Shown here: in pieces, positions 4,038 to 45,222 of the stretch
Layout of the letters: every line of letters starts with the position of its first letter
Position numbering within the stretch: the first letter of the stretch is position 1
Source of the DNA: Pseudoxanthomonas sp. F37
Lineage (GTDB): Bacteria > Pseudomonadota > Gammaproteobacteria > Xanthomonadales > Xanthomonadaceae
Assembly: GCF_022965755.1 (NCBI RefSeq)
Contig: NZ_CP095187.1
Location: forward strand, 496,001 to 560,000
Length of the DNA stretch: 64,000 nt
Reading direction: 5' to 3'
Notes under the pieces: generated by a model
What the model was told of the DNA's origin: nothing
What the model saw: the letters and a program-made list of their open reading frames with translations, nothing else
Databases searched by the model: none
Translations under genes and position numbers: made by a program

Positions 4038-4228
4038 ACTTCCAGGCCGGTCTCCGGGCTTGCGAGCGAGTGCAGGGCACTCCGCCGGGGCGCCTTCCCA
4101 TGCGTCCTGGACGCACAGTGGCCGATGCCGCGGCTTTCTTCGCCTACCGTTGCGGGGGCAGCGCCGGAATGACGCCGCGAGGCGGTTCACCGGCTTCCCG
4201 TTTCAACCCGGCACGAGGCGCGGGTCAC
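4038..4228 (-). promoter_or_regulatory. Cobalamin riboswitch upstream of btuB
   Basis: Read on the minus strand, the sequence has the ordered conserved blocks of a cobalamin riboswitch: GGGAAGCCGGTGAA, then GCTGCCCCCGCAACGGTA (the B12 box core), then GCCACTG, GGGAAGGCG, and the closing AAGCCCGGAGACCGGCC. It ends about 130 nt before the btuB start. When B12 is bound the element would block ribosome access or stop transcription. The expression platform lies in the GC-rich stretch 3909-4037. Confidence 0.95.
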
Positions 4229-4300
4229 CTGAAAGCGCGCGCAGTATACGCGGGACGAAGCGCTTCGCGCGCGCAGACGTGTCCATGCCGGAGATCTTTT

Positions 4301-25793: not shown

Positions 25794-27482
25794 TTACTCG
25801 GGGCGGTGGCGGCGCCCGCGTGCCGGAACGGTGATGTTCCTGGCCAGCACGGTGGCATCGTTGGCCAGCTTCCGCTGGAAGCGAGCCGCACGCTCGGGCG
25901 GGAGGACGGCACCGGCCGCTCTGCCCGCATTCGCAAGCCATCGCAGACCGGCGTAGCCGGTGGGCCCGAGATGGGCAGGGATGTCCTGCAAGAGTCGCCT
26001 GGGGTCCCAGTTGATCCCCTCTTCGGGGCGGATCCTGCCCATGGGTTTGTATTGCACCACGTACTTGTCGAGCATGGCTCGCAGGCATGCTTCCTTCTGG
26101 CGGTTGTACGCGTTCTCCAACTGGAGCTCGGCGCAAGCGAAGCCCACGACGATGGAGGGTGAGCAGACGATATCGGTGGCTACGTTGCCGGTGATCGAGC
26201 CGTCGCGGACGCTGCAGGTCACCACCACGTCGAAGTTGCCGCCGGGGTTGTCCGCGAAGATGTCCAGCCGGTCGGCTCGAGCATCGAAGCGCAGCGTCAC
26301 CGGCCGGTTGGCGGTGGAAGCGGTGCGGCCCGCGAAGGTCTCCACGTCCAGGTGCAGGGTGATCGTGCCGGAGCCGGAGACGGGCGTGGCGTTGATGCGC
26401 CAGCTGGAAACAGGAATCGCATAGCGCTGTGTATCCAGCGTGATCCGCGCCCGCTCATCCAGGCCGTAGACGCGCCACGCGTACTCGCGATCTTCCAGGC
26501 AGCACGCGGCGAACTCGGGGCACCCGACCTGGTCGTCTGCCTCGAGCCGGAACGTACCGTCCGCCAGGGGTTGCCGACGAAGTTCGTGCACGCGCACGCG
26601 CAGCCTGGCTTTGTAGTCGTGATCCATCGGGATGATGGTCGCGCGATGCGTGTTCGACCAGTACGACTGCACGCGGCAACCGTTCACGAACGCGGTCTGT
26701 TGCGTGCCGGGAGCGGCTGCCGTGCCGCCCGAAAAGCCCGCGTCGGACACCTCGTTGGTGGCCGTGTCGTTCTCGGTATGCCATCCATCCGACTCCGGAT
26801 CGGTCAGCATCTCGGCGATTTCATGGCTCATGACCCACATCATTTCCTGCCGGTCGGCATTGGGGGCGATCCACCCGGCCCAGAACCGGTCCTCGTCGGG
26901 TTCGTCGAAGATGAAGTCCCAGTCGTAGCCCGAGCGGTGGGCGCCGAGCGCATCGCCCGAGCGCAGGACGAATCCGTCCGGCATCACGACGATGTAGATG
27001 ATGCGCGGCCCTTCGTCGGGGTCCGGGAACACATCGTCGTCGATCAGGTCGTCGATCAGGTCGACGGTTGCGCGGCCTATCTCCTTGATGTCCGCCACCG
27101 ACATCGGCGGCCCCGGCTCGGTCGCAATGAGCGAGCCGCGCCACACAGGGCGGGCGATGCCGTACTGAGCGAGATGATCGAAGTAGGGGCTGTCGAGCAT
27201 CGCCACGGTGGCGGCTTCGATGGCCCCGCGTGCGGAGGCGCCTGCGTTCGTCCACCAGCTGCCCCAGAACACCAGTTGCACAGGATGTCCGCCGGGGGCG
27301 CCCGCGGTGGCGCCACCGTGGTAGCTGAAGCTCGATCCATCCAGCGTGTTGTCGGCAAAGATCAATACGTTGCCGGCGGGACGGGCCCACACGCCCTGTG
27401 CGGAGCGATCGTCCTTCTGGTAGGTGTAGAGCAGGACTCCAGTGTCGATCGCCTTGGTGGCGACCAGGCGCGGGCTGGGCAT
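25794..27482 (-). CDS. Uncharacterised protein with HEIAE (putative zinc-protease-like) motif
   Basis: 562-aa protein, start ATG at 27482 with AAGGAA upstream. There is no signal peptide. Residues about 60-300 contain VQLVFWGSWWTNAGAS, IIYIVVMPDGF and then MWVMSHEIAEMLTDPESDGWH with a later NEVSD and GCRVQSYWSN. The HEIAE-TDP arrangement resembles a zinc-binding metallopeptidase-like site, of the sort seen in phosphate-induced (EXORDIUM-like) proteins. The next part looks like a beta-sandwich (TITLHLDVETFAGRT); the C-terminal 130 residues have clustered cysteines and no recognised domain. It is transcribed alone and converges on cydX. Function unknown. Confidence 0.78.
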   Translation of the reverse strand: MPSPRLVATKAIDTGVLLYTYQKDDRSAQGVWARPAGNVLIFADNTLDGSSFSYHGGATAGAPGGHPVQLVFWGSWWTNAGASARGAIEAATVAMLDSPYFDHLAQYGIARPVWRGSLIATEPGPPMSVADIKEIGRATVDLIDDLIDDDVFPDPDEGPRIIYIVVMPDGFVLRSGDALGAHRSGYDWDFIFDEPDEDRFWAGWIAPNADRQEMMWVMSHEIAEMLTDPESDGWHTENDTATNEVSDAGFSGGTAAAPGTQQTAFVNGCRVQSYWSNTHRATIIPMDHDYKARLRVRVHELRRQPLADGTFRLEADDQVGCPEFAACCLEDREYAWRVYGLDERARITLDTQRYAIPVSSWRINATPVSGSGTITLHLDVETFAGRTASTANRPVTLRFDARADRLDIFADNPGGNFDVVVTCSVRDGSITGNVATDIVCSPSIVVGFACAELQLENAYNRQKEACLRAMLDKYVVQYKPMGRIRPEEGINWDPRRLLQDIPAHLGPTGYAGLRWLANAGRAAGAVLPPERAARFQRKLANDATVLARNITVPARGRRHRPE

Positions 27483-27661
27483 GGGGCGTTCCTTGCTGCC
27501 TGTCGGATGCAGGAAACAACGCGGCTGCCCCGATCCGTGGGTCACCGCTCGTCGGTCGTCATGCGAAGCCCGCCTGGATCGGACTGGCGACCGATGCCGT
27601 CGTCAGGGGCGGCGGGAAGCAGGTTGGGTGCGATGCGCTCGATGCCTGCTCCAGGAGGCAC

Positions 27662-27718: not shown

Positions 27719-30196
27719 TCAGAACTCCTGCGAGAACCGCAGGCCGATGGTGCGCGGCTGGGTCACCACCGTATAGACCTGGCCGTTCGGGTACTCCGGC
27801 ACCACGCCGGCGGCGCCGCAGACCGATTCGGCGCACTGGGTGAACCGGTTCAGTTCGCCGCGTTCGTCGAACAGGTTGTTGACGTACACGTCCACCTTCC
27901 AGTCGTTGCGGCGGTAGCCGGCCGACACGTCCACCGTGGTGTAGGCATCCAGGTCGCCAAGGATCTCGCGTTCGGCCAGGCGCAGGTCGGACTTGCGGTC
28001 GCCTACGTGCACCACCGCGCCCTGCAGGAAGGCTTCGCCGCCCGCCACGTCGAAGGTGTAGCGCGCGGTCAGGTTGCCCTTCATCTTCGGCGTGACCGGC
28101 AGCTGCGTGCCCTCCGGCGCCTCGGGGTCGGCGCACTCGGTGACCGGGTTGCCGTCGTCGTCGGTGAAGCCGCAGTAGTTCTCGGTCAGCTCCGCGTCGT
28201 AGAACGCGGCGCCGGCGGTCAGCTGCAGGTTGTAGGTGGCCGCGAACGCCAGCGAGAACTCGGCGCCGTTGATGCGCGCCTGGTTGGCGTTCTTGATCTC
28301 GGTCAGGCCGTTGGCGCCCAGGATGGAGAACTGGAAGTCCTCCCAGTCCTGGCGGAACACCGAACCGTTGAACGACAGCCGGTTGTCCAGCCAGGTGGTC
28401 TTCCAGCCGAACTCGTAGTTGGTCAGGTAGTCCGACAGGTACGGCGGCAGCGTGCCGCGGCGGTTGATGCCGCCCGGACGGAAGCCCTCCGACCAGGTGC
28501 CGTAGATCATCTTGCTGGGGTCGATGCGCCAGGTCAGGTTGAAGCGGCCGATGTGGCCGTTCTCCTTCACCCGCTTGTCGAAGAAGCTGCAGGGGGCGCC
28601 GTTGAAGGTGGGCGCGCCGTCCGGGCAGGCCGCCTCGCCGTAGCTGGACACCCAGCCCCAGTCGGCGAACCCGAAGAAGCCCTTCAGGCTGTTGTCCACC
28701 TCGAACCAGCGCGCGCCGGCGGTGGCGGTCAGGTCCTCGGTGATGTCGAAGCTGAGCTCGCCGAACACCGCCTTGTCCTTGTCCTGGCGCAGCTGCTTGG
28801 TCAGCCAGATCGTGTCCGGCCAGCCCGTGACCGACTGCACCGGCGACAGGCCGTCGATCTTGTAGCGCTGCTCGATGTCGTGTTCCTGGTCCTGCATGAA
28901 CACGCCGGCGACGAAGCGGAAGCGGTTCTCGGTGGGCGAGGCGATGCGCAGCTCGTGGCTGGTCTTCTTGTAGCCGTCCACGCCCTGGATGTACTGCGAG
29001 GGATTGACCAGCGAGCCGGGCGCGCAGGTGAAGGTGTCCGGATCGAAGTCGGAGCAGGTGTAGGCGCCGTAGGCCGCCAGCGTGTCGTACCAGAAGGCGT
29101 AGTCGTTGTAGTCCTGTTCCACGTCGACGTCGCGGTCCAGGCGGGCGAACGCGTAGGTCAGGTCGAAGTTGCCGATCCTGCCTTCCACCGTCAGCGCGGC
29201 CTGCCACCAACGGTCGTCCGAGGTCTCCGGGTAGAAGTGGGTCAGCGCCAGTTCCCCCACCTGCGGGTCCACGGCAAAACCGCCTTCGGACTTCTGCTGC
29301 TGGCCCATGAGGGTCGGGGTGATCGACCAGTTGTCGTCCAGGTCCACCTTCAGCGCCAGGCGCGCGCCGGTGGTGTCGACCTCGTTGTAGTCCTTCCTGG
29401 CGCGGCCGGCGTTGTCGATGGTGCCGTTGCCGCCGGAGTCGGCGTCCCACGACGGGAACGTGCGCGTGCCGTACACGTTGTCGATATAGCCGGCGTCGTG
29501 CTTGTTCCAGGCGACCAGGCGGATGGCCGCGCGCTCGCTCATGGGCAGGTTGAGGAAGCCTTCGGCGACGTGGCCGATGCCGCCGTGGCTGACGCTGTTG
29601 AGCTCCAGCCCGTAGCCGGCGGCGAAGCCGGTGGGGTCGGGTTTGTTGGTGATGATGCGCAGCGTGCCGGCCTGCGAGCTGGCGCCGTACAGCGTGCCCT
29701 GCGGGCCGGCCAGCGACTCGACGCGGTCGATGTCGTAGATGTGGATGTCCAGCGGGCCCTGGATGGTGGTGACCGGCTGTTCGTCCAGGTAAACGCCCAC
29801 GCTGGGCAGCGAGCCGGAGTGGTTGCCGTCGCCACCGCTGGCCACGCCGCGCATGTAGATCTGCGCGAAGCCCGGGCCCGCGGACTGGTACGACACGCTG
29901 GGCAGGTACTTCACGTAGTCGTCGAAGTCGGTGACGTTGAGGTTCTTCAGCTGTTCCGTGCCCAGCACCTGGATGCTGATCGGAACTTCCTGCAGGTTCT
30001 CCACGCGCTTCTGCGCGGTCACCGTGACGGTGTCCAGGGTGGCTGCGCTGCGTTCGCCCTCGGCCGGCGGCGTGGCGGGCGCGTCCTGGGCCAGGGCGGT
30101 GGCCCCGAACGCCAGGTAGATCGCGGCGGTCAACGGGAACTTCGCCAGGGTCGACGGATCGCGCCGCCCCGGCTTTCTTCTGCTGCGGTTACTCAT
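27719..30196 (-). CDS. TonB-dependent outer-membrane receptor, second gene of the sulfotransferase operon
   Basis: 825-aa receptor. The ATG at 30196 follows GAGAGAGGTG; a signal peptide (FPLTAAIYLAFGATALAQDA), a TonB-box-like segment (ATLDTVTVTAQKR), a plug (VPISIQVLG, IYMRGVASGG, VGVYLDEQPVTT, DRVESLAGPQGTLYGASSQAGTLRIITN) and a barrel ending in IGLRFSQEF follow. The plug style is that of the large receptor family of sphingomonads and xanthomonads whose ligands are mostly not siderophores. It lies 28 bp behind the TPR-sulfotransferase gene and opposite a catabolic operon, so it probably takes up that operon's substrate. A four-cysteine external loop (CSDFDPDTFTC, CPDGAPTFNGAPC) is visible. 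Confidence 0.92.
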   Translation of the reverse strand: MSNRSRRKPGRRDPSTLAKFPLTAAIYLAFGATALAQDAPATPPAEGERSAATLDTVTVTAQKRVENLQEVPISIQVLGTEQLKNLNVTDFDDYVKYLPSVSYQSAGPGFAQIYMRGVASGGDGNHSGSLPSVGVYLDEQPVTTIQGPLDIHIYDIDRVESLAGPQGTLYGASSQAGTLRIITNKPDPTGFAAGYGLELNSVSHGGIGHVAEGFLNLPMSERAAIRLVAWNKHDAGYIDNVYGTRTFPSWDADSGGNGTIDNAGRARKDYNEVDTTGARLALKVDLDDNWSITPTLMGQQQKSEGGFAVDPQVGELALTHFYPETSDDRWWQAALTVEGRIGNFDLTYAFARLDRDVDVEQDYNDYAFWYDTLAAYGAYTCSDFDPDTFTCAPGSLVNPSQYIQGVDGYKKTSHELRIASPTENRFRFVAGVFMQDQEHDIEQRYKIDGLSPVQSVTGWPDTIWLTKQLRQDKDKAVFGELSFDITEDLTATAGARWFEVDNSLKGFFGFADWGWVSSYGEAACPDGAPTFNGAPCSFFDKRVKENGHIGRFNLTWRIDPSKMIYGTWSEGFRPGGINRRGTLPPYLSDYLTNYEFGWKTTWLDNRLSFNGSVFRQDWEDFQFSILGANGLTEIKNANQARINGAEFSLAFAATYNLQLTAGAAFYDAELTENYCGFTDDDGNPVTECADPEAPEGTQLPVTPKMKGNLTARYTFDVAGGEAFLQGAVVHVGDRKSDLRLAEREILGDLDAYTTVDVSAGYRRNDWKVDVYVNNLFDERGELNRFTQCAESVCGAAGVVPEYPNGQVYTVVTQPRTIGLRFSQEF

Positions 30197-30224
30197 CCAG
30201 CTCACCTCTCTCCAGTGATGACGG

Positions 30225-32267
30225 TCAATCGGGAATGGAACTGCCTGCCATGAAGTCGGGAACCGCCGGATAGGCGCCCAGGACGGGTCCCAACGCCACC
30301 TTCAGCGGTTCCAGCCACGGTTCGTAATGCCGCCAGTGATCCATGCCTTCGCGGTAGATCGGCTGGCGGACCTGCTCGGAACTGGCGGTGCGTACCGGCC
30401 GCGCGTTCTCGAAGAAGCGCAGGCAGCCGTCCTCGAACGGCAGCCCGCAGTAGGCCAGCAGGCGGCGCACTTCGGATTCGGTGTCGTCCACCAGCTGTTC
30501 GTAGATGACCCGGTGCACGCGCCCGGGCAGCACGTCGTCGTAATGCGCCATCAGCGCCACGTAATCGTGGTAGTAGCGGCCGATGTCCTCCAGCGAATAG
30601 CTGAAACCCTGGCCGCGCGCGAAGTGCTGCTTGTAGCCGGAGAAGCAGCAGGCCAGCGGGTGGCGCCGCGCGTCGATGATCTTCGCCTTGGGCAGCATCA
30701 GGTGGATCAGGCCGGTGTGGGCGAAGTTGTTCGGCATCTTGTCGATGAAGAACGGGCGGCCGGACTTGCGGTGGATGCGGGTCGACCGGAGGTAGCGCTC
30801 GCCGAGCGCGCGCAGGGCGTCGCCGTCCAGCGCCGCCAGCAGGTCGTGGTAGGTGTCGGCGCCGCGTGCCCGCGCCTGCTCGCGCAGTTCGCGGGTGATG
30901 GACGTGATGTCGGGGAGCTCCATCGTGCCTTCCACGGCGGAGTGGCTGGACAGGATCTGTTCCAGCAGCGTGGAGCCGGCACGGGGCATGCCGACGATGA
31001 AGATGGGGTCGGGCGCATCGCAGCCCAGGCCGGCGCGTTGCGCGAAGAACGCCGCGCTGTGCGCGCCGCGCAGCCGGCGCACGCGCGCACGGGTGTCGTC
31101 GGCGCTGTAGCCCAGCTGCGCGCTGCGCAGCGTGTTGCCGTCGCGGTAGTGCGCGAACGACGCCGCGTAGTCGCCGGCGTCCTCCAGGGCCTTGCCCAGC
31201 GCGAAGTCCAGATGCAGGCGGTCGTCCTCAGGAAGATCGGCGCGCGCGCGCTGCGCACGCATCAACGCCATGTCGTCATCGCTGAAGCGGAAGGTCTTCA
31301 GGTTGGCCAGGCTCCACCACACTTCGCCGAAGCCCGGCTGCAGCGAAAGCGCGCGGCGGTAGGCCTCGATCGCGCGTGCGGCGTGGCCGGCCGTCTTCAA
31401 TGCATGGCCATAGCTCATCCAGATCCTGGCCTGCTGCGGGTACGAGGCCAGCACGCGCTCGTACAGCGCCAGCGCGGGTTCGTAGTCGCCGATGCGGCAC
31501 AGCACCACCGCCTTGAGGTTCAGGTGCGCCGGATTGTCCGGCTCGTGCGCCAGCAGGTGGTCGATCTGCCGCAGGGCGTGCTCGGGCCGGTTGGCCCGGT
31601 GCAGCACCAGCGCGTAGTTCTGCCGGGCGGGCAGGAAGTCCGGCGCCAGTTCCACGCAGCGGGCGAGCAGGGATTCGGCGTCCTCGCCGCGCCCCACGCG
31701 CGCGGCGACTTCGGCCAGCATGCGGATGGCGGCCACGTCGGTGGGCACGCGCTTGAGGTGCGCGCGCAGCAGGGCTTCCGCCTCGGGAATGCGGTTGTCG
31801 GCCAGGGCGGCGGCGGCCTGCATCAGTCCGGGATCGCGCGTGGCGTGGCGGGTGTGTTCCAGATAGGCCTTCGCCGCGCCGTCGCCATCCCCCATCGCGG
31901 ACAGGTGGTCGCCGAGTTCGCGCCACGCCTGTGGCAGGTCCGGCTTCAGCGCCAGCGCACGGCGCAGGGCCGGTACCGCGTCGCCGCCGCGTCCGGCGCG
32001 GCCGAGCGTCAGGCCATGCTCCAGATGGGCCAGTGGCCACTGCGGGTGTTCGCGGACCAGGGGTTCCAGCACATCGAGTGCGTGCGACATCTGCCCGCGC
32101 ACACGGTGCGAGGCGGCCAGCACCAGCCGTGCCATCGGATGCGGGCCGACCACGCGGATGATCTCGTTGGCCTGCTGTGCGGCCATCGCAGGATCGGTGG
32201 CCAGCAGGTGGCGCGCATGGTCCAGCGCGGTCTGCAGCGTGCCGCTCGGGCTGGCGACCGCGTTCAT
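30225..32267 (-). CDS. TPR-repeat sulfotransferase
   Basis: 680-aa fusion. Residues about 1-370 are tetratricopeptide repeats (for example LEHGLTLGRAGRGGDAVPALRRAL, NLKAVVLCRIGDYEPALALYERVL). The rest is a PAPS-dependent sulfotransferase: 5'-phosphosulfate loop IFIVGMPRAGSTLLEQIL and 3'-phosphate motif DARRHPLACCFSGYKQHF, with YEQLVDDTESEVRRLL further on. No signal peptide, so it is probably cytoplasmic. The family is widespread beside TonB receptors in proteobacteria, with substrate unknown (protein tyrosine or carbohydrate have been suggested). It is the first gene of the minus-strand operon and faces the Rieske operon across a 338-bp gap. Confidence 0.88.
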   Translation of the reverse strand: MNAVASPSGTLQTALDHARHLLATDPAMAAQQANEIIRVVGPHPMARLVLAASHRVRGQMSHALDVLEPLVREHPQWPLAHLEHGLTLGRAGRGGDAVPALRRALALKPDLPQAWRELGDHLSAMGDGDGAAKAYLEHTRHATRDPGLMQAAAALADNRIPEAEALLRAHLKRVPTDVAAIRMLAEVAARVGRGEDAESLLARCVELAPDFLPARQNYALVLHRANRPEHALRQIDHLLAHEPDNPAHLNLKAVVLCRIGDYEPALALYERVLASYPQQARIWMSYGHALKTAGHAARAIEAYRRALSLQPGFGEVWWSLANLKTFRFSDDDMALMRAQRARADLPEDDRLHLDFALGKALEDAGDYAASFAHYRDGNTLRSAQLGYSADDTRARVRRLRGAHSAAFFAQRAGLGCDAPDPIFIVGMPRAGSTLLEQILSSHSAVEGTMELPDITSITRELREQARARGADTYHDLLAALDGDALRALGERYLRSTRIHRKSGRPFFIDKMPNNFAHTGLIHLMLPKAKIIDARRHPLACCFSGYKQHFARGQGFSYSLEDIGRYYHDYVALMAHYDDVLPGRVHRVIYEQLVDDTESEVRRLLAYCGLPFEDGCLRFFENARPVRTASSEQVRQPIYREGMDHWRHYEPWLEPLKVALGPVLGAYPAVPDFMAGSSIPD

Positions 32268-32605
32268 GCACCGTCTCCGTGCAGGAGGACGGTGATGCAT
32301 CCGCAGTCGGCCATCGGTCGAGCCAATCGGGTATCCCGGTGTGGTGGTGTATCCCTCGCCTCCAATCTATAGGCGAACCGGGGGCGCTGGATAGAGCACG
32401 AACACGCTGGAAAGCGCGCCTTTTTGCTGCGCGAAAAGTAATTCGCCTTTCGCATGCGGCATCTGCACCGTGCGGGTGCGCGGTGTCCGGGATGGCGGCA
32501 CATGATGGTGCGGCAGGGGGACTGTGCCGGCCCCCCGTCCACCGCTTAGGCTTGGCGCATGCCCGGCGGCAGCAAGGCCGGGCGACACCTCCCGACGGGA
32601 ACGCC
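32268..32605. promoter_or_regulatory. Divergent promoter region with inverted repeat at 32431-32453
   Basis: 338 bp without a gene between the sulfotransferase and Rieske genes. It contains GCGAAAAG-N7-CCTTTCGC (one mismatch between the arms) in a locally AT-richer patch (CTGCGCGAAAAGTAATTCG). This is the best candidate for an operator governing both divergent units. No regulator gene lies inside the cluster. Confidence 0.45.
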
Positions 32606-33661
32606 ATGCCGGACACCGCCTCGCCCTTGCCCCTCGACCGCGCCCGGGCGTTGCCCGCCCGCTACTACGCCGGCGAGGCCATGCTCGCGATGGAGCAGGG
32701 CGCGGTCTTCCACCGCAGCTGGCAACTGGTGGCGCACCAGGGGCAACTGGCCGAACCGGGCGACCATATCGTCGAATACGTCGCCGGCGTGCCCGTGCTG
32801 GTGGTGCGCGGCCAGGATGGCGTGCTGCGCGCCTTCCCCAACGTATGCCGCCATCGCGCGGGCCCGCTCGCGCTGTGCAACGGCAAGGGCGCCCGCGCAC
32901 TGCACTGCAAGTACCACGGCTGGACCTACACCCTGGAAGGCCAGCTGCGCAGTGCGCCGGAGATGCAGGGCGCGGCGGACTTCGACATGGCCGACATCCG
33001 CCTGCCGCCGCTGCGCGTGCACGCATGGCAGGGGCTGGTGTTCGTCGCCGTGCACGAAGATGCGCCGCCGTTCGAGGCGGTATATGGCGGCATCGCCGAG
33101 CGCATCGCGCCCATCGACCTGGCCGCGATGCGCTTCCACCGCCGCGACCGCTACGACATCGCGTGCAACTGGAAGGTCTACGTGGACAACTTCCTGGAGG
33201 GCTACCACCTGCCGCACGTGCACCCCGGGCTGTCGAAGGTGCTCGATTACCGCGCGTACGACACCCAGCTGTTCCCCTGGCATTCGCTGCAGCACTCGCC
33301 GCTGCGCAACAGCGGCGACATCTACGGCGATGGCGATGCCTTCTACTATTTCGTCTATCCCAACGTGATGCTCAACATCATGCCGGGCCGGCTGCAGACC
33401 AACCGCATCCTGCCGCTGGGGCCGGACCGCTGCCGGGTGGAGTTCGACTACTACTACGCGCAAGACGACGCGGCCCTGGCCCGCATCGCCAACGACCAGG
33501 CCTTCAGCGACGAAGTGCAGGACGAGGACATCCGCATCTGCGAGGCGGTGCAGCGCGGCCTGGCCTCCGGCTTCTACCAGGCAGGCCGGCTGTGCCCGAA
33601 GCGCGAAAGCGGCGTCTGGCACTTCCACAACCTGTTGAGGGCGGCCTATGGCGATGCGTGA
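32606..33661 (+). CDS. Rieske non-heme iron oxygenase, alpha subunit
   Basis: 351-aa single-component-type oxygenase. The Rieske [2Fe-2S] ligands are Cys81, His83, Cys101 and His104 (VCRHRAG, LHCKYHGW). The mononuclear iron site is NWKVYVDNFLEGYHLPHVHPG with His201 and His206, and a downstream DEDIRICEAVQRG supplies the carboxylate region. Family relatives of this size demethylate quaternary or methylated amines (glycine betaine, stachydrine, carnitine). No ferredoxin reductase is encoded nearby, so electrons must come from elsewhere. The ATG at 32606 has GACGGGA upstream. It overlaps the amidohydrolase gene by 14 bp. Confidence 0.9.
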   Translation: MPDTASPLPLDRARALPARYYAGEAMLAMEQGAVFHRSWQLVAHQGQLAEPGDHIVEYVAGVPVLVVRGQDGVLRAFPNVCRHRAGPLALCNGKGARALHCKYHGWTYTLEGQLRSAPEMQGAADFDMADIRLPPLRVHAWQGLVFVAVHEDAPPFEAVYGGIAERIAPIDLAAMRFHRRDRYDIACNWKVYVDNFLEGYHLPHVHPGLSKVLDYRAYDTQLFPWHSLQHSPLRNSGDIYGDGDAFYYFVYPNVMLNIMPGRLQTNRILPLGPDRCRVEFDYYYAQDDAALARIANDQAFSDEVQDEDIRICEAVQRGLASGFYQAGRLCPKRESGVWHFHNLLRAAYGDA

Positions 33662-34937
33662 CCGGGTCCTGCCCGCACTGCTGCTGGCCGCCGTCGCACT
33701 GCCGGCCGCGGCCCAGGATCTGCTGATCCGGGCAGGCCACGTCCTGGACGTGGAAACGGGCCGGATGCTGGCCGCGCACGACATCCTGGTGCGCGAGGGA
33801 CGGATCGTTTCCATTACCCCGCCCGCCGAAGCCGCCGGTCCCGGCCTGCGGACGCTGGACTGGTCGGCGCTGATCGTCGTGCCCGGCCTGATGGACATGC
33901 ACACGCACCTGGCCGACGAGGGACCGTACGGCGATCCAGCGACACCGCTGAGGAGCAACGCCGCGCGCGATGCCCTTATCGGTGCGCGCAATGCGCGGGC
34001 CACCCTGCAGGCCGGCTTCACCACCGTGCGCGATGTCGGGGTCTACCGCGGCTTCGCCGACGTGCAGCTGCGCGATGCGATCAACGCCGGGCGGGTGCCC
34101 GGGCCGCGCATGTTCGTCGCCGGTGCCTACGTCACCGTCACCGGCGGTGGCGGCGAGATCACCGGATTGCCTGCGGGGACCGAGGTGCCGGACACCTTCC
34201 GTCGCGGCATCGCGGACAACGAGGCCGAGGTCCGCCGGCGCGTGGACGAGATCCTGGACAACGGCGCCGATTTCATCAAGCTGATCGCCACCGGCGCCGT
34301 GCTCGCCGACGGCACCGAGCCGGGGCAGTCCGAGTACACCGAGGCCGAGATCCGCGCGGCGGTCGAACAGGCCGAGGCTCGCGGCAGCTTCGTCGCCGCG
34401 CATGCGCACGGGGCCGAAGGCATCAAGCGTGCCGTGCGTGCCGGTGCGCGCTCGATCGAGCACGGCTCGTTGATGGACGACGAGGCGATCGCGCTGATGA
34501 AGCGGCACGGCACCTGGCTGGTCGCCGACATCTACAACGGCGACTACATCGACAGCGTCGGCCGGCGCGATGGCTGGTCCGCCGAGAGCCTGCGCAAGAA
34601 CCTGGACACGACCGATGCGCAGCGCGAGGGCTTCCGCAAGGCCGTCGCCGCCGGCGTCGACATCGCCTACGGCACCGACAGCGGCGTCTACCCGCATGGC
34701 GACAACGCGCGCCAGTTCGCCTACATGGTCCGCCACGGCATGACGCCGCTGCAGGCCATCCGCGCGGCGACGCTGGAGTCGGCGCGCCTGCTGCGCAGGG
34801 AAAAGGAGCTGGGCTCCATCGCACCGGGCAAGGCCGCCGATCTGGTCGCCCTGGCCTGCGACCCACTGGCCGACATCGCCTGCCTGCAGCAGATCCGCGG
34901 CGTGCTGAAGGCCGGCGTGCCGGTCGCGCGGGACTGA
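33648..34937 (+). CDS. Periplasmic metal-dependent amidohydrolase (imidazolonepropionase/prolidase-like)
   Basis: 429-aa amidohydrolase-superfamily enzyme with a signal peptide (RVLPALLLAAVALPAAAQ). Metal-site motifs in order: MDMHTHL, FIKLIATGAV (carboxylated Lys), VAAHAHG, RSIEHGS and AYGTDSG, with a C-terminal LGSIAPGKAADLVAL strand. Relatives from Caulobacter and marine bacteria cleave dipeptides or N-acyl amino acids with Pro, Arg or Lys at the C-terminus. It probably releases an amino acid in the periplasm for the permease encoded 6 bp downstream. An ATG at 33654 is an equally possible start. Confidence 0.88.
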   Translation: MAMRDRVLPALLLAAVALPAAAQDLLIRAGHVLDVETGRMLAAHDILVREGRIVSITPPAEAAGPGLRTLDWSALIVVPGLMDMHTHLADEGPYGDPATPLRSNAARDALIGARNARATLQAGFTTVRDVGVYRGFADVQLRDAINAGRVPGPRMFVAGAYVTVTGGGGEITGLPAGTEVPDTFRRGIADNEAEVRRRVDEILDNGADFIKLIATGAVLADGTEPGQSEYTEAEIRAAVEQAEARGSFVAAHAHGAEGIKRAVRAGARSIEHGSLMDDEAIALMKRHGTWLVADIYNGDYIDSVGRRDGWSAESLRKNLDTTDAQREGFRKAVAAGVDIAYGTDSGVYPHGDNARQFAYMVRHGMTPLQAIRAATLESARLLRREKELGSIAPGKAADLVALACDPLADIACLQQIRGVLKAGVPVARD

Positions 34938-34943
34938 TCCGGC

Positions 34944-36257
34944 ATGCCGCCGCGCGACGGCAGGAAGATCGGCTTCTGGACCTGCACCGCGCTGGTGGTG
35001 GGCAACACCATCGGCATGGGCATCTTCGTGCTGCCGGCATCGCTGGCGCCGCTGGGCTACAACGCGCTGCTGGGCTGGGGCATCACCGTACTCGGTTGCC
35101 TCGCGCTGGCGCGCGTGCTGGCGCGGCTGGCGCGCCTGCTGCCGCAGGCCGACGGACCGTATGGCTACGTGCAGGCGACGCTGGGTGGCCTGCCGGCCTA
35201 CGCGGTGCTGTGGTCGTACTGGGTATCGAACTGGATCACGCTCGCCGCGCTCGCCACCGGCGTGGTCGGCTACGCGGCGGCGATCTTCCCGGCGCTGGCG
35301 CGCGTGCCGGCCGCCGTGCTGAGCCTGTGCACGCTGTGGCTGTTCGTGGGCATCAACCTGTTCGGGGTGCGCAGCGGCGGCCGCGTCCAGGTGGCGACCA
35401 CGGTGATGAAACTGCTGCCGATGCTGGCCGTGGCCGTTCTGGGCGCATGGACGCTGGTGGACTCGCCGGCATCGTTCGGCGCGCATCCGCCTGCCAGGCC
35501 GGTCAGCCTGGGCGATGCGATGGCGGCATCCACGCTGGCGTTGTTCGCGATGCTGGGCATCGAGTCGGCGACCATCCCCGCCGCGAAGGTCGAGGACCCC
35601 GGGCGCACCATACCCCGCGCCACGCTGATCGGGACCTTCATCACCGCCGCCATCTACCTGGTGGTGTCCGCCGTGCCGTTGCTGTTGCTGCCACACGCGG
35701 AACTGGCCGGGTCCAGCGCGCCGTTCGCGCTGGTGATGGAGCGTTTCGCCGGCGAAGGAACCGGGCGCTGGATCGCGTTGTTCGTCCTTGTCAGCGGCCT
35801 GGGCGCATTGAATGGCTGGACGCTGCTGAGCGGCGAGATGATGCGCACCATGGCCGACAACGGCACGATGCCGAAGGTGTTCGCACGGGCCAATCGATTC
35901 GGCGCGCCCACCGGCGCCCTGGTGCTGACGGCCCTGCTGGCCAGTGCCATGGTGTTGATGAACTACAGCGAGTCCGCGGTGGCGGGCTTCACCTTCCTCA
36001 GCACGGTGGTGACGGCCGCCAACCTGCCGCTGTACCTGGGCTGCTCGCTCGCCCTCGGCGTGCTGTGGTGGCGCGGCCGGCGCGACACCGGGCGCGACCT
36101 GCTGGTGGCGGCCGTGCTGGGCGCGGCCTATACGGTGTTCGCCTTCATCGGCATGGGCGCGCAGCCGTTCTGGCTGGCGCTGGCGCTGATGGCCGCCGGC
36201 CTGCCGTCGTACTTCCTGCTGCGCCGTCGCCACGGCCGGGTCGTGCAGGATGCGTGA
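34944..36257 (+). CDS. APC-family amino acid permease
   Basis: 437-aa inner-membrane transporter with about twelve helices. The opening GFWTCTALVVGNTIGMGIFVLPASLAPLG carries the substrate-binding glycine-rich break of the first helix; FAMLGIESATIPAAKVEDPGRTIPRAT is the typical APC helix-6 region. It is of the YjeH/arginine-agmatine-antiporter-like group. Its position between a periplasmic amidohydrolase and a demethylase suggests import of the hydrolysed amino acid or amine. It overlaps the next gene by 8 bp. Confidence 0.9.
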   Translation: MPPRDGRKIGFWTCTALVVGNTIGMGIFVLPASLAPLGYNALLGWGITVLGCLALARVLARLARLLPQADGPYGYVQATLGGLPAYAVLWSYWVSNWITLAALATGVVGYAAAIFPALARVPAAVLSLCTLWLFVGINLFGVRSGGRVQVATTVMKLLPMLAVAVLGAWTLVDSPASFGAHPPARPVSLGDAMAASTLALFAMLGIESATIPAAKVEDPGRTIPRATLIGTFITAAIYLVVSAVPLLLLPHAELAGSSAPFALVMERFAGEGTGRWIALFVLVSGLGALNGWTLLSGEMMRTMADNGTMPKVFARANRFGAPTGALVLTALLASAMVLMNYSESAVAGFTFLSTVVTAANLPLYLGCSLALGVLWWRGRRDTGRDLLVAAVLGAAYTVFAFIGMGAQPFWLALALMAAGLPSYFLLRRRHGRVVQDA

Positions 36258-38316
36258 CCCGCGCTACGACATCCTGTTCGAGCCGGTGCGCATCGGGCCG
36301 GTGACGACGAAGAACCGCTTCTTCCAGGTGCCGCACTGCAACGGCATGGGCCATGCGATGCCGCTGGCGCACGCGGCCATGCGCGAGGTGAAGGCCGAGG
36401 GCGGTTGGGGCGTGATCGCGACGGAGGAGTGCGAGATCCACCCCAGCAGCGACCTCACGCCGTACGTCGAGGCGCGCCTGTGGGACGACCGCGACATCCC
36501 CGCGCTCGCGCTGATGTGCGAGAAGGTGCACGCGCACGGCGCGCTGGCGGCGCTGGAGCTGTCGCACAACGGGCCGACGGCCTCCAACCTGTATTCACGC
36601 GAAGTGCTGCTGGCGCCGTCGCACCAGCCGTCCAAGTACGGCTATCCCTCGCAGGCGCGCGCGATGGACCTGCACGACATCGCCGAGTACCGCCGCTGGC
36701 ACCGCGAAGCCGCGGTGCGCGGCATGCAGGCGGGCATGGACATCATCTATGTCTACGCCGCGCACGACCTGTCGCTGCCCATGCACTTCCTGCAGAGGCG
36801 CCGCAACCAGCGCAGCGACGCCTACGGCGGCAGCCTCGAGAACCGCGTGCGCCTGTTGCGCGAGGTGCTGCAGGACACGCGCGAGGCGGTCGGCCATCGC
36901 TGCGCCGTGGCGCTGCGCTTCGCCACGGAGGAACTGCTGGGGCCGGGTGGCGTGGAGCGGGCCGAAGCGCAGGACATCGTCGGCATGCTGGCCGAGCTGC
37001 CCGACCTGTGGGACGTCAACCTCGCCGCCTGGTACAACGATTCGGTGCCCTCGCGCTTCGCCCGCGAAGGCGCCCAGGAACCCTTCATCGATTTCGTCCG
37101 CAGGGCGACCACCAAGCCGGTGGTCGGCGTGGGCCGTTTCACCTCGCCCGACACCATGGTCTCGCAGATCCGCCGCGGCGTGATCGACCTGATAGGCGCC
37201 GCGCGGCCGTCCATCGCCGACCCGTACCTGCCGCGCAAGATCGAGGAAGGCCGGGTCGACGACATCCGCGAATGCATCGGCTGCAATATCTGCGTCTCCG
37301 GCGACATGACGATCTCGCCGATCCGCTGCACGCAGAACCCGAGCATGGGCGAGGAATGGCGCAAGGGCTGGCATCCGGAGCGGATCGCGCCCAAGGCAAG
37401 CGACGCCCGCGTGCTGGTGGTCGGTGGCGGGCCGGCCGGCCTGGAAGCGGCGCGCGCACTGGGCCAGCGCGGCTACGAAGTCCACCTGGCCGAAGCCCGG
37501 CGCGAACTGGGCGGGCGGGTGACGCGCGAGGCGCGCCTGCCGGGGCTGGCCGAATGGGCACGCGTGCGCGACTGGCGGCTCGGACAGATCGGCAAGCTGG
37601 CCAACGTCAGCACCTACCTCGACTCCGCGCTCACGGCGCAGGACGTGCTCGATTTCGGCGCCGACCATGTGGTCGTCGCCACCGGCTGCCATTGGCGGCG
37701 GGACGGCTTCGGGCGCAGCCATGGGCTGGGCATCGCCGACTTCGCCGACAACCCGCGGGTGTTCACCCCGGACGACCTGATGGACGGGCGCTGGCCCGAG
37801 GGCCGCGTGGTGGTCTACGACGACGACTACTTCTATACCGCCAGCGTCGCCGCCGAGGCGCTGCGCCTGCGCGGGTGCGAGGTCACCTGGCTTACGCCGG
37901 ACGACACCGTGGCCTCGTGGAGCGCGAACACCCTGGATTACCGCCACATCCAGTGGCGGATGGCCGAGTTCGGGGTGACGCAGTGCGTCTCGCACATGAT
38001 CGCCGGCTACACGGGCAGCGCGCTCGCGCTGGAGCAGGTGTGGAGCGGCGCGGCTTCGTCGCTGGCGTGCGACGCGGTCGTGGTGGTCACGGCCCGCCTG
38101 CCCGACGATGCGCTCTTCCAGGCGTTGAAGGCACGCGAGGCGGAATGGGCGGATGCGGGCATCCGCAGCGTGTCCTGCATCGGCGATGCGCTGGCGCCGG
38201 GGCTGATCGCGCACGCGGTATATGCCGGCCACCGGTACGCGCAGGAACTGGATGCCCCGAAGCACGACGGGGTGCCGTTCAAGCGCCACTTCCATCACGA
38301 CACGCCGATGGCATGA
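36250..38316 (+). CDS. Trimethylamine-dehydrogenase-like flavoprotein (probable N-demethylase)
   Basis: 688-aa protein of the TMADH / dimethylglycine-demethylase (DgcA) / N-methylproline-demethylase (HpbA) family. An N-terminal FMN TIM barrel starts DPRYDILFEPVRIGP. The Cys that holds 6-S-cysteinyl-FMN in TMADH is kept (VPHCNGMG, Cys30). The 4Fe-4S motif is CIGCNICVSGDMTISPIRC, and the C-terminal NAD/FAD-type fold begins ARVLVVGGGPAGLEAARAL. From memory of TMADH, Tyr60 appears replaced (ATEECEI) and the Trp after the cluster is missing, so the substrate is probably not trimethylamine. It ends 3 bp from the convergent GH43 gene. Confidence 0.88.
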   Translation: MRDPRYDILFEPVRIGPVTTKNRFFQVPHCNGMGHAMPLAHAAMREVKAEGGWGVIATEECEIHPSSDLTPYVEARLWDDRDIPALALMCEKVHAHGALAALELSHNGPTASNLYSREVLLAPSHQPSKYGYPSQARAMDLHDIAEYRRWHREAAVRGMQAGMDIIYVYAAHDLSLPMHFLQRRRNQRSDAYGGSLENRVRLLREVLQDTREAVGHRCAVALRFATEELLGPGGVERAEAQDIVGMLAELPDLWDVNLAAWYNDSVPSRFAREGAQEPFIDFVRRATTKPVVGVGRFTSPDTMVSQIRRGVIDLIGAARPSIADPYLPRKIEEGRVDDIRECIGCNICVSGDMTISPIRCTQNPSMGEEWRKGWHPERIAPKASDARVLVVGGGPAGLEAARALGQRGYEVHLAEARRELGGRVTREARLPGLAEWARVRDWRLGQIGKLANVSTYLDSALTAQDVLDFGADHVVVATGCHWRRDGFGRSHGLGIADFADNPRVFTPDDLMDGRWPEGRVVVYDDDYFYTASVAAEALRLRGCEVTWLTPDDTVASWSANTLDYRHIQWRMAEFGVTQCVSHMIAGYTGSALALEQVWSGAASSLACDAVVVVTARLPDDALFQALKAREAEWADAGIRSVSCIGDALAPGLIAHAVYAGHRYAQELDAPKHDGVPFKRHFHHDTPMA

Positions 38317-38319
38317 TGC

Positions 38320-39930
38320 TCAGGCCAGGGCGCGGTAACGGAAGTCGCTGAACTCCACCGCGCCCGGGCCGGCGCTGTACAACGCCACCCGCAGGCTGAG
38401 GAAGCCGCCGAACACGTTGTGGTGCAGGCCGGAGACTTCCATCCGCGTGTCCAGGCGCTTCCAGGTGCGGCCCCCGTCGTGCGAGTGGTGCCAGGTCACC
38501 ACGTGGTGGTCATAGGTCAGGCGGATACGCACGCGCCGGGTCGGCAGGGCTTGTCGCGCCCACGCCTGCTCCTCCGCGTACTGGAACACGCGCAGTCCAT
38601 CCGCCGCGAAGCCCAGGCCGACGAAAGCCTTCGGGCTGTAGAACAGCAGCAGGCCGCCTTCGCCGCCCTCGACCAGGGTCAGCGTGACCTCGGCCTGGTA
38701 GGCGCGGTCGCCGACGATGCAGGCCAGGGGGCTGGCATCGGCAGGTGAACGGCCTGCGCCGGCCAGGCGGAGGGACTTGGCGCCATAGCGCACCCGTCGC
38801 ATCTCGTCCGGTCGCGGCGCGTGGAAGGCCCACTGCGTGCCGAGGCGGTCGCTGGAGAAATCGTCCGACAGCGCGGCGCCCGCGCTCCCCGCCCTGCCGC
38901 CGCGCGGCACCGGCAACGGCGCCGACAGATCGCCGCCGCGCGCACGGAACCAGCCATCGTCCGTCCATTCGATCGGCTCCAGCAGCGTCTGCCGGCCGAG
39001 CGTGCGATAGCCGTTCTCGTAGCCGTGGTAGACCATCCAGCTGTCGCCGGCCGGCCCCTCGACCAGGGTCGCGTGGCCGCGCGACCACCAGGGCTCGGCA
39101 TCGCTCAGCGTGCGCACCAGCGGATTGTGCGGGCAGTGCTCCCATGGCCCGTGGATCGAGCGCGAGCGCGCGGCGATCACCATGTGGCCGGTGACGGGGC
39201 CGGCGGTACCGCCGACGGCGGTGACCAGGTAGAACCAGTCGCCGCGCCGCGTCAGCTTGGGCCCTTCGGGCGCGAAGTTCTCGGTGATCCATGCATCCGG
39301 ATAGCGCCAGGGCCTGTAGGCGTTTTCGAGCGCGCCATCGGTCGCCAGGCCGTCATCGGTCAGGCGCACCTTGCGGATGCCGTTGACGAACAGGTAGCGC
39401 CGGCCGTCCTCGCCGACCGCATGGCCGGGGTCGATGCAGCCATCGATGTGCAGGTCCACCGGCGCGCTCCACGGTCCGCGGATGTCATCGGCCCAGATCG
39501 CGTGGATCTTCCACGCCTGGTCCTTCGCCAGCGCCGGCAGATAGATGAAATAGCGGTCGCCGTGCTTGCAGAGGTCGGGCGCCCACACCGTGCCCACGTG
39601 CGTGCGCAGCGCGGGGCCGAGCGGCGTCCAGGCCAGCAGGTCGGTCGAATGCCAAATCACCAGGCCGGGGTAGGCATCGAACGACGAGAACGTCATGTAG
39701 TAGTCGTCGCCGTCCTTGAGGATCGTGGGGTCGGGGCGATCGCCGGCGACGATGGGGTTGAGATAGGTGCCCTCGCCGAGGTCGGCCTTGCGCTGGCCCT
39801 CGACGCCGGTGGCGTGCGCCGGCAGCCCGGGCGCACACGGCGTGGACGCGACGGCGCGCGAGGACAGCGGCCAGCTGGCCAGGCCGGCGAGTCCGGCCTT
39901 GAACAGTGCGCGGCGCGAGGTGCCTGGCAT
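38320..39930 (-). CDS. GH43 family glycosidase with Tat-like signal
   Basis: 536-aa secreted enzyme. An SRRALFKAGLAGLASW twin-arginine-like signal opens the protein. The five-bladed GH43 propeller has the catalytic base in DRPDPTILKDGDDYYM, the pKa Asp in HIDGCIDPGHAVGE and the acid Glu in TENFAPEGPKL. A C-terminal beta-sandwich (residues about 360-536, LSDDFSSDRLGTQWAFH) resembles DUF1349/GH43_C2. The likely activity is beta-xylosidase or alpha-L-arabinofuranosidase on plant oligosaccharides. It is the last gene of the galactonate operon. Confidence 0.87.
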   Translation of the reverse strand: MPGTSRRALFKAGLAGLASWPLSSRAVASTPCAPGLPAHATGVEGQRKADLGEGTYLNPIVAGDRPDPTILKDGDDYYMTFSSFDAYPGLVIWHSTDLLAWTPLGPALRTHVGTVWAPDLCKHGDRYFIYLPALAKDQAWKIHAIWADDIRGPWSAPVDLHIDGCIDPGHAVGEDGRRYLFVNGIRKVRLTDDGLATDGALENAYRPWRYPDAWITENFAPEGPKLTRRGDWFYLVTAVGGTAGPVTGHMVIAARSRSIHGPWEHCPHNPLVRTLSDAEPWWSRGHATLVEGPAGDSWMVYHGYENGYRTLGRQTLLEPIEWTDDGWFRARGGDLSAPLPVPRGGRAGSAGAALSDDFSSDRLGTQWAFHAPRPDEMRRVRYGAKSLRLAGAGRSPADASPLACIVGDRAYQAEVTLTLVEGGEGGLLLFYSPKAFVGLGFAADGLRVFQYAEEQAWARQALPTRRVRIRLTYDHHVVTWHHSHDGGRTWKRLDTRMEVSGLHHNVFGGFLSLRVALYSAGPGAVEFSDFRYRALA

Positions 39931-39951
39931 GCGGACTCCGTGATCGCGCGG

Positions 39952-41625
39952 TCAGCGACGGACGGCGTAGAGGCCGAACGTATTGCCGATGAAGCCGCCC
40001 GCGGTCTCTACGCTCAGCAGGCTGGCATCCAGGCCGGTGGCGACGGTCTTCCAATCGCCGGCCGTCAGCGCGTACGACGCCTCCAGGCGCGGACCGTCGA
40101 CGCGGAAGCGCAGCGACACCGGGCCGTGGCCTTCATCCAGCGGAATGCGCGCCAGGCGATCGCCTTCCTTCGCCCCCTCGCGGCCGCTGCGCCGGTACAG
40201 CGACACCGCCAGCCCGCGCGCATCGCGTTCGACGCCCAGCACGTAGTGGCCGTATTCGTTCTGCAGCAGCACCAGTCCCGCCAGTTCGCCGGTGGCGGGC
40301 TCGAACGATGCGAGCGTGGTTTCCAGCGTGGCCGCGTGGTGCTGCAGCCGATGGGCGATGTAGGCCGGCTGGCCCGGCGCCGTACCGAAGGCGCCCAGCG
40401 GCATCGCGCCCGGGGTGATGGTCAGGCCGTTGCTGCCGGTGGCGTACCAGCGGCGCTGCGGCGGATGCAGTGTCATCCACGCCGGCGGCAGCGTGGGCGC
40501 GTCGAACCGCTCGGTCCACGTCATCGGTCCACTGGTCGGCAGCGGTTGCGGATTGCGCGGCAGGTCCGGACGCTTGGCGACCATCGGCACGCGTTCGCCG
40601 CGCGGCAGGATCACCGGCCAGCCGTCCTTCCAGGTGACCGGCAGCAGGAAGGTCTCGCGGCCCAGGTTGTACTGGTTGCCGCGGTACGGGCGGGTGGCCA
40701 GGAACACCGCCCACCACGTGCCGTCCTTGAGCTCCACGAACTGCGCATGGCCGGTGGAAGTAACGGGGTCGGTGCGCTTCGGGTCGAGGTCGCGCTGGGT
40801 CAACGCGGGGTTCGACGGGGACGGCTGGTAGGGGCCGGCGAGCGCGCGGCTTCGCCACACCATCTGCGCATGCTGTTCGCCGGTGCCGCCCTCGGCGGCG
40901 GTCAGGTAGTACCAGCCGTCGTGCTTGAAGATGTGGGGGCCTTCGACGTGTTCGGGATTCGTCGCCGGATCGGCGCCGCCATCCACCAGCAGGATGCGCG
41001 GGCCGACGCGTTCGCGCGTGCCGAAGTCGAAGCGCTGCAACCAGATGGCGCGATGGCCATCGTAGCGGCGCTGTCCGTCCGGCACGTCGTTGTGCACCAC
41101 CCACGCGCTGCCGTCGTCGTCGAAGAACAGCGACGGGTCGATGCCGCTGATGCCCAGCCAGATCGGGTCCGACCACGGGCCCGCGGGATGGCTGGCCGTC
41201 ACCACGAAGTTGCCACGGTCGCAGTAGAAGCAGGTGTTGGCGATGTAGAAGGTGCCATCGTGGTGGGCGAGGGTGGCGGCGAACAGGCCGCGGGTCAGTT
41301 CTTCCTTCTCGCCGTAGTTGATCTGCGAGGGACGATGGATCGCGTTGCCGACCTGATTCCATGACACCAGATCGGTGCTGTGGAAGACCGGCAGGCCGGG
41401 GAAGTAGCCGAACGTGGAGGTCACCAGGTAGAAGTCGTCGCCGACGCGGATCGCGGACGGGTCTGGGTAGAAGCCCGCCACGACCGGATTGCGGTACTCA
41501 TCCGCGCCCACCGGCGGGCCGCCATCGTCGCCGTGGTAGCGCACTTCGCTGAAGACCGCATCGCCGGCCCATGCGGGGCCGGTCATCAACCACGCCGCCA
41601 GTATCCACGCGCAGTGCTTCAGCAT
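39952..41625 (-). CDS. GH43 family beta-xylosidase/alpha-L-arabinofuranosidase (GH43_12-like)
   Basis: 557-aa secreted enzyme (signal MLKHCAWILAAWLMTGPAWA). The GH43 catalytic residues lie in YPDPSAIRVGDDFYLVTSTF (base), GISGIDPSLFFDDDG (pKa modulator) and HVEGPHIFKHDGWYYL (acid), followed by a C-terminal sandwich domain. The wide YFPGLPVFHSTDLVSW motif is typical of subfamily 12 enzymes acting on xylo- and arabino-oligosaccharides. It lies 11 bp after dgoK and 21 bp before the second GH43 gene. GH43 enzymes of this sort accompany xyloglucan loci in Xanthomonas. Confidence 0.88.
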   Translation of the reverse strand: MLKHCAWILAAWLMTGPAWAGDAVFSEVRYHGDDGGPPVGADEYRNPVVAGFYPDPSAIRVGDDFYLVTSTFGYFPGLPVFHSTDLVSWNQVGNAIHRPSQINYGEKEELTRGLFAATLAHHDGTFYIANTCFYCDRGNFVVTASHPAGPWSDPIWLGISGIDPSLFFDDDGSAWVVHNDVPDGQRRYDGHRAIWLQRFDFGTRERVGPRILLVDGGADPATNPEHVEGPHIFKHDGWYYLTAAEGGTGEQHAQMVWRSRALAGPYQPSPSNPALTQRDLDPKRTDPVTSTGHAQFVELKDGTWWAVFLATRPYRGNQYNLGRETFLLPVTWKDGWPVILPRGERVPMVAKRPDLPRNPQPLPTSGPMTWTERFDAPTLPPAWMTLHPPQRRWYATGSNGLTITPGAMPLGAFGTAPGQPAYIAHRLQHHAATLETTLASFEPATGELAGLVLLQNEYGHYVLGVERDARGLAVSLYRRSGREGAKEGDRLARIPLDEGHGPVSLRFRVDGPRLEASYALTAGDWKTVATGLDASLLSVETAGGFIGNTFGLYAVRR

Positions 41626-41636
41626 CCGGTCTTCCT

Positions 41637-43441: not shown

Positions 43442-43445
43442 GGCA

Positions 43446-45217: not shown

Positions 45218-45222
45218 GCGGA

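Follow-up and report, generated by a model that had tools for sequence, protein, structure and literature searches.

What a divergent cluster of six genes in the soil-type bacterium Pseudoxanthomonas sp. F37 imports and degrades is the question raised by positions 27719 to 38316 of a 64,000-nucleotide stretch (the window; positions 496,001 to 560,000 of contig NZ_CP095187.1), which lies in a complete single-contig genome of 3.97 Mb. As the initial annotation had described, the six genes flank one divergent intergenic region (32268 to 32605; 338 bp), with those for a TonB-dependent outer-membrane receptor and a TPR-repeat protein with a C-terminal sulfotransferase domain (TPR-sulfotransferase) on the minus strand and those for a Rieske oxygenase, an amidohydrolase, an APC-family permease, and an iron-sulfur flavoprotein on the plus strand. 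The four plus-strand genes, annotated as catabolic and as overlapping or nearly touching, do so: the Rieske and amidohydrolase genes overlap by 14 bp, a gap of 6 bp precedes the permease gene, and the latter overlaps the flavoprotein gene by 8 bp. Motif inspection revealed catalytic motifs in the Rieske protein, flavoprotein, amidohydrolase, and sulfotransferase. The six genes form one conserved system whose linkage exceeds chance. Judging from the sequences, we give even weight for and against the proposal that this locus would serve the acquisition and catabolism of a peptide-bound, N-methylated basic amino acid.

A genome scan returned at least 595 stretches, at least 588 of them relatives, from which the best 80 flavoprotein relatives were kept as loci. 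Families were counted in flanks of at most 10 kb around the flavoprotein gene; neighbor genes were called by our own codon-usage script, most families were identified through similarity to a single member that had been scanned, and Rieske and aminotransferase hits below 50% identity were dropped (among them the 27 to 34% identical Rieske proteins of loci L109 to L113 and L115). Because some contigs are short, these counts are lower bounds. At least four of the six window families occurred together in 28 of the 80 loci, at least three in 39, and all six in 4, two of the latter (L050 and L051) in close Pseudoxanthomonas relatives; the co-occurrence check suggested with the initial annotation, i.e., four or more families repeatedly together, was thus positive. 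Besides the flavoprotein (80 loci), the permease was found in 37 loci, the Rieske protein in 33, the amidohydrolase in 22, the TPR-sulfotransferase in 19, and the TonB receptor in 18; S9 and S58 peptidases, CehA/PD40 proteins, and aminotransferases were found in 16, 15, 10, and 7 loci, respectively. Linkage follows relatedness, with at least three of the six families present in 34 of the 50 loci whose flavoprotein was at least 75% identical, in 5 of the 25 between 60 and 75%, and in none of the 5 below. In differing subsets, it extends over Rhodanobacter, Dyella, Pseudoxanthomonas, Silanimonas, Arenimonas, Sphingomonas, and others, and in L110 an oligopeptide ABC transporter adjoins the Rieske and flavoprotein genes. 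The nearest named relatives are the Pseudoxanthomonas loci L050 to L052 (flavoprotein identity of 94 to 95%). Within the family, flavoproteins of at least 54% identity were found in 16 of 198 genomes (the window's own included) and of at least 72% in 15; some match was obtained in 193 of the 198, the rest reaching at most 35% among the matches listed.

Upstream stretches were fetched for three genomes (G117, G063, and G180), and in all three the window genes lie inside a locus of 16 to 17 genes; all six window families thus recur within a larger catabolic locus. Genes for the TonB receptor, the TPR-sulfotransferase, an M20-like protein, a PcaF-like thiolase, and a PcaR-like regulator run in one direction, and those for an aminotransferase, an aldehyde dehydrogenase, two CoA-transferase subunits, a second aminotransferase, an S9 peptidase, and the Rieske protein, amidohydrolase, permease, and flavoprotein run in the other. 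An S58 peptidase gene lies on the opposite strand within the locus, and a CehA/PD40 gene precedes S9 in G063 and G180, not in G117. The thiolase and the regulator of locus L199 passed the cut-offs of the PcaF (625.7 bits; cut-off, 597) and PcaR/PcaU (294.7 bits; cut-off, 284.75) models, whereas the CoA-transferase subunits of the relatives scored 23.6 and 34.8 bits with PcaI and PcaJ, below the cut-offs of 128.5 and 243.55. CoA-transferase subunit A is nonetheless 68% identical to an Azospirillum protein encoded just upstream of a beta subunit, pcaF, pcaD, pcaC, and protocatechuate genes, and to one encoded upstream of pcaF in Sinorhizobium meliloti. The best solved matches of the S58 protein were, in this order, 1b65 (named aminopeptidase; we take it to be DmpA), a D-aminopeptidase, and a beta-peptidyl aminopeptidase.

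Uptake would start at the TonB receptor (828 aa; 27719 to 30205, minus strand; start codon GTG at 30205 or alternatively ATG at 30196), which carries Pfam Plug and TonB_dep_Rec_b-barrel domains and matched no NCBIfam model at cut-off. Together with the TPR-sulfotransferase (680 aa; 30225 to 32267, minus strand; Pfam TPR and Sulfotransfer_3), it may import small peptides to the periplasm. The partner protein, with the sulfotransferase PAPS (3′-phosphoadenosine 5′-phosphosulfate) loop motif PRAGST, had been left without an obvious place in the pathway. Its gene does travel with that of the receptor, lying within 400 bp of it in 18 of the 19 named loci that have it (among the best 80 of at least 588); word searches of open-licence literature found no paper joining the two. 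The secreted amidohydrolase (429 aa; 33648 to 34937, plus strand) has the metal-ligand motifs HxH, K, H, H, and D and a signal-peptide-like start that bears out its predicted periplasmic location. It exceeds the curated cut-off of NF051886, Xaa-Pro dipeptidase of the Caulobacter type (507.1 versus 500 bits), and its best solved match is 3mtw, Cc2672, which the PDB names L-Arginine carboxypeptidase. Cc2672 accepts lysine at the C terminus as well. Since the model name and the PDB name disagree on specificity, a proline link is still conceivable for this Cc2672-like carboxypeptidase/dipeptidase. Its family suggests that, aided in relatives by the S9, S58, and M20 peptidases, it would free a C-terminal basic residue for import by the permease (437 aa; 34944 to 36257, plus strand; Pfam AA_permease_2). 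The best NCBIfam score of the latter was with the basic amino acid/polyamine antiporter model TIGR00905 (258.4 bits, below the cut-off of 409), and it is related to arginine/agmatine and histidine/histamine antiporters. The logic of TonB uptake, periplasmic splitting, permease import, and oxidation put forward initially fits the gene set found; of the methylated amino acid it was to release, the N-methyl part is favored, and the permease and hydrolase families point to a basic residue.

The freed residue would then be oxidized by the Rieske protein followed by the flavoprotein, most likely with removal of N-methyl groups. The Rieske alpha subunit (351 aa; 32606 to 33661, plus strand; Pfam match, run from 32618; motif EGYHLPHVH) has the CxH/CxxH motifs, the YHx4H His-His triad, and the acidic bridging residue (Glu), all general to Rieske oxygenases. 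Its closest solved chain is CntA (6y8j; 164 bits), followed by Stc2 and an uncharacterized chain (105 to 110 bits). The initial assignment to an amine-demethylating type needs qualification: the Cys pair seen in CntA and Stc2 is missing, and the protein falls in a clade of its own. In a tree built without aromatic oxygenases and with some long branches, the cluster Rieske proteins formed one group (support of 100/99), joined a group of 58 to 65% identical paralogues (96/97), and stood apart from CntA/YeaW, Stc2, and GbcA-like proteins. Matches to the Rieske protein in a class-wide search came from 3 of 274 genomes, that of the window strain among them; the stretches taken from the other two (contigs of 14.7 and 5.9 kb) held no further cluster family. 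By our count, 73 of the 198 family genomes encode the paralogue: of 90 genomes in which a match was obtained, 12 had the cluster type and 5 no more than a 43% relative. An M2 (ACE-like) peptidase gene lies near the paralogue in all six family loci examined (L189, L190, L191, L196, L197, and L198), and a second permease of the basic amino acid type, 40% identical to the APC protein, in all but L189; the paralogue loci are a second peptidase-permease-Rieske module. Separately, a 41 to 42% identical Rieske relative with the motif DGGYHVPHLH, similar to one that we presume occurs in plant choline monooxygenase, was found in L184, L185, L187, L188, L194, and L195, in the first three of them near a set of a GCV_T protein and two flavoproteins.

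The flavoprotein (688 aa; 36250 to 38316, plus strand) had been called TMADH-like (trimethylamine dehydrogenase), which is correct for the family; its closest solved chains, however, are the histamine dehydrogenases of Nocardioides simplex (3k30) and Rhizobium (6de6), and the aromatic bowl of TMADH is absent. Over the N-terminal part alone, identity was 60.8% with histamine dehydrogenase (372 aligned positions) and 48.8% with TMADH (1djn; 375 positions). Both the 6-S-cysteinyl FMN (flavin mononucleotide) residue, Cys30, and the 4Fe-4S cysteines of TMADH are present (the latter as CIGCNIC...RC in the window protein), the former in 82 of the 82 homologues aligned from the 80 loci. We take the TMADH bowl to consist of Tyr60, Trp264, and Trp355; here, E60 stands at Tyr60, W261 is kept, and a one-residue gap without Trp falls at Trp355. 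Among the 82 homologues, E60 is conserved in 78, E74 and W261 in 80 each, and D352 in all. Passages of one paper on histamine dehydrogenase propose Q65, I74, F77, E79, N115, Y181, W267, and D358 as binding residues and give histamine, agmatine, putrescine, and 1,3-diaminopropane as accepted substrates (PMC10180351). In our alignment to these positions, three of the eight are identical (E, W, and D), I74 and F77 are conservatively replaced, and Q65E, N115T, and Y181L differ. Such an acidic pocket suits a cationic amine, and it does not tell deamination from demethylation. Two side observations concern flavoprotein homologues. In Dongia/Rhodospirillaceae loci (L109, L112, L113, L108, and L115), they lie beside genes for an M81 (MlrC-like) metallopeptidase, an acyl-CoA dehydrogenase, and an MFS transporter (Pfam scan for L112, clustering for the rest), together with a different Rieske gene in all but L108, a short contig. 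The match in G147 (L018/L047) was reported with one internal TGA; our open reading frame (ORF) script gives an open 684-aa frame, so that the stop may lie at the frame end.

The strongest argument for N-demethylation, one from exchange and not from activity, comes from relatives in which the oxidation cassette is replaced. The permease was found at E ≤ 1e-90 in 12 of the 198 family genomes. Four of these have the flavoprotein locus, the contig of G120 ends right after the permease gene, and in G121 a 46% relative stands in a different setting. The remaining six (G075, G102, G127, G146, G078, and G129) lack the flavoprotein locus and keep the S9, S58, amidohydrolase, and permease genes. All six encode a GCV_T folate-demethylase-like protein and two amine-oxidase/CrtO-like flavoproteins, and four of them a Rieske protein that matches the GbcA model over its length and carries ECYHC in each case. 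Upstream, aldehyde dehydrogenase, CoA-transferase, and first-aminotransferase genes are present in the six genomes, and TPR-sulfotransferase and TonB receptor genes in five, the contig of G127 ending earlier, inside the thiolase gene. No match to the two extra flavoproteins was found in the 80 flavoprotein loci at E ≤ 1e-20, and GCV_T matches among these loci were confined to L098 and L123 (27%). In the Gemmatimonadaceae locus L098, genes for aldehyde dehydrogenase, CoA-transferase, aminotransferase, and flavoprotein are followed by one for a FAD (flavin adenine dinucleotide)-oxidoreductase plus GCV_T domain protein, with domains as in dimethylglycine/sarcosine dehydrogenases. The stepwise removal of methyl groups first supposed is favored by this swap.

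Which basic amino acid is degraded may be read from the back end of the full loci. Conversion of 3,6-diaminohexanoate (beta-lysine) into 3-oxoadipate takes two transaminations and one aldehyde oxidation. The gene families of the relatives suggest that two aminotransferases and the aldehyde dehydrogenase would perform these reactions and that CoA-transferase and PcaF would then yield succinyl-CoA and acetyl-CoA, so that each step of such a route could be accounted for. A C6 3,6-diamino acid skeleton of the beta-lysine type hence fits the 3-oxoadipate back end. Only tentatively, as a reading that we consider unlikely, do we extend the proposal to an undescribed pathway for peptide-bound N-methylated beta-lysine-like amino acids ending in 3-oxoadipate, with two interchangeable demethylation cassettes, i.e., Rieske protein plus histamine-dehydrogenase-like flavoprotein, or GbcA-like Rieske protein plus folate demethylase and flavoproteins. 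Trimethyllysine, a strong early candidate, fits the peptidases, the permease, and demethylation, but not 3-oxoadipate; it is a possible substrate of compact loci such as that in the window. Two other candidates were set aside: beta-alanyl peptides such as carnosine, which offer no step for the 3-oxoadipate enzymes, and 6-aminohexanoate, since no beta-oxidation genes were recognized in the loci. Searches of the window strain's own genome covered CoA-transferase subunit A, the first aminotransferase, S58, and a CntB-like reductase. The first aminotransferase had 32 to 35% matches over most of its length and partial ones of up to 40%, and a 46% relative of S58 lies elsewhere than the window. The strain thus seems to carry the front end only, from peptide uptake to oxidation, and the product formed there would have to feed into general metabolism.

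Several findings weigh against catabolism of an N-methylated basic amino acid by one linked system. Cys-x-x-Cys beside the mononuclear iron is replaced by EGYHL in all 33 cluster Rieske proteins; as the pair is described as unique to some Group V enzymes (PMC10952381), its lack is no proof against a quaternary amine. No reductase gene adjoins the window Rieske gene, and the best own-genome match to a CntB-like reductase is only 27% identical. In the swapped cassettes, the one GbcA-like Rieske protein scanned scored 284 bits (cut-off, 670), and the GCV_T protein scored 285 bits with the trimethylamine N-oxide demethylase model (cut-off, 1100). CoA-transferase subunit A had no match in the window genome; like that for the reductase, this search had no positive control in that genome. 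Nine of the 80 loci have all window families except the amidohydrolase, and 36 have the flavoprotein without the other five, some on short contigs. N-methylated beta-lysine did not appear in word searches of open-licence literature, which leaves this substrate guess without a known natural source; no published account of the locus was found by such searches, at listing level.

The acidic, histamine-dehydrogenase-like pocket of the flavoprotein is as well suited to deaminating a basic amine as to demethylation, and the main rival is a deamination in which no methyl groups take part. Here, the Rieske protein would hydroxylate first and the flavoprotein, as an amine dehydrogenase, would oxidatively deaminate a basic amine or diamine released from peptide or amide linkage. 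The 61% identity over 372 positions, the diamines and agmatine among the substrates listed in the histamine dehydrogenase passages (PMC10180351), the three pocket acids (E60, E74, and D352 in 78, 80, and 82 of 82 homologues), and the kinship of the permease with amine antiporters all accord with it, as do two neighbors of flavoprotein homologues: in Ideonella, an aldehyde dehydrogenase gene directly alongside, and in S. meliloti, a gene for an NAD-dependent succinate-semialdehyde dehydrogenase nearby. Against it stand the replacement by a GCV_T cassette, with a GbcA-like Rieske protein in four of six relatives, and the dimethylglycine-dehydrogenase-like neighbor in L098, and we regard this rival as possible yet rather unlikely. 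Distinctly improbable is a chance linkage of two separate modules for peptide scavenging and amine oxidation. Two g42 genomes (L044 and L047) do have Rieske and flavoprotein genes in the absence of these peptidases, and the loci with the flavoprotein alone agree with such a split, but the overlapping window genes, the 28 loci with at least four families, and the pairing of one peptidase-permease set with either oxidation cassette oppose it. Slightly less probable still is a known route for degrading a free betaine (glycine betaine, stachydrine, hydroxyproline betaine, or carnitine) with accidental neighbors. Among known families, the Rieske protein does match CntA and GbcA best, but it reaches only 138.7 bits with the GbcA model NF058607 (curated cut-off, 670) and lacks the Cys pair, CntA/YeaW and Stc2 fall outside its clade, and its conserved neighbors include peptidases and a permease for basic amino acids; plain glycine betaine or stachydrine use was set aside. 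Very improbable, and likewise set aside, is a ring-hydroxylating Rieske protein in a locus degrading an aromatic compound to 3-oxoadipate, which would accommodate the 3-oxoadipate-type CoA-transferase and PcaF of the full loci and an HPPD-like gene just past the cassette in three of four g39 loci, but no ring-cleavage family was seen among the neighbor proteins scanned (a subset of the ORFs), aromatic dioxygenase models score below GbcA on the Rieske protein, and the aminotransferases and peptidases would be left unexplained.

Elsewhere in the window, a minus-strand ORF (25794 to 27545; 583 aa) had no Pfam or NCBIfam match at E ≤ 0.001, and a cobalamin riboswitch (4028 to 4247, minus strand; 101.6 bits) lies upstream of a 606-aa ORF (2037 to 3857). 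Directly downstream of the flavoprotein gene, 38320 to 45963 holds minus-strand ORFs, the first for a GH43 protein and the remaining ones, as judged by eye, resembling sugar and sugar-acid catabolism; among the best 80 of at least 588 loci, relatives of this stretch cluster only in L050 to L052.

Collectively, the initial interpretation is sustained for a conserved system (28 of 80 loci) and revised for the identities of its enzymes. Catabolism of a peptide-bound, N-methylated basic amino acid would represent a conserved, testable nutrient pathway across Lysobacteraceae/Rhodanobacteraceae and beyond, offer a possible role for two orphan enzyme groups (EGYHL Rieske proteins and Glu60/Asp352 histamine-dehydrogenase-like flavoproteins), and place in a defined catabolic setting a DmpA/BapA-type peptidase, whose natural job is, to our knowledge, unclear. 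An N-methylated beta-amino acid as the substrate would require a natural source that has gone unnoticed.

The locus resembles known systems in parts. The flavoprotein shares with histamine dehydrogenases 3k30 and 6de6 whole-length homology, the FMN-Cys, the 4Fe-4S cysteines, Tyr-His-Asp, W261, E74, and D352, but has E60 for their Q65 and T110 and L174 for their N115 and Y181; TMADH (1djn) belongs to the same protein family, with Tyr60 of its bowl changed to Glu here and no Trp at the Trp355 position. CntA and Stc2, Group V enzymes, are the closest solved chains of the Rieske protein, which has the bridging Glu, whereas it lacks Cys-x-x-Cys and an adjoining partner reductase gene and forms its own clade. 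Cc2672 (3mtw) is the best solved match of an amidohydrolase that also reaches the cut-off of NF051886, a model named for Xaa-Pro dipeptidase. The beta-ketoadipate pathway is echoed by the L199 proteins of a relative that reach the PcaF and PcaR/PcaU cut-offs, with two aminotransferases and an aldehyde dehydrogenase in place of ring-cleavage genes and with CoA-transferase subunit A not found in the window genome. Finally, the Gbc/Dgc, Stc, and Hpb pathways for glycine betaine and hydroxyproline betaine likewise pair a Rieske protein with a TMADH-type flavoprotein for stepwise demethylation, whereas in the locus described here a TonB receptor, peptidases, and a permease for basic amino acids are added, and relatives also have a 3-oxoadipate back end.

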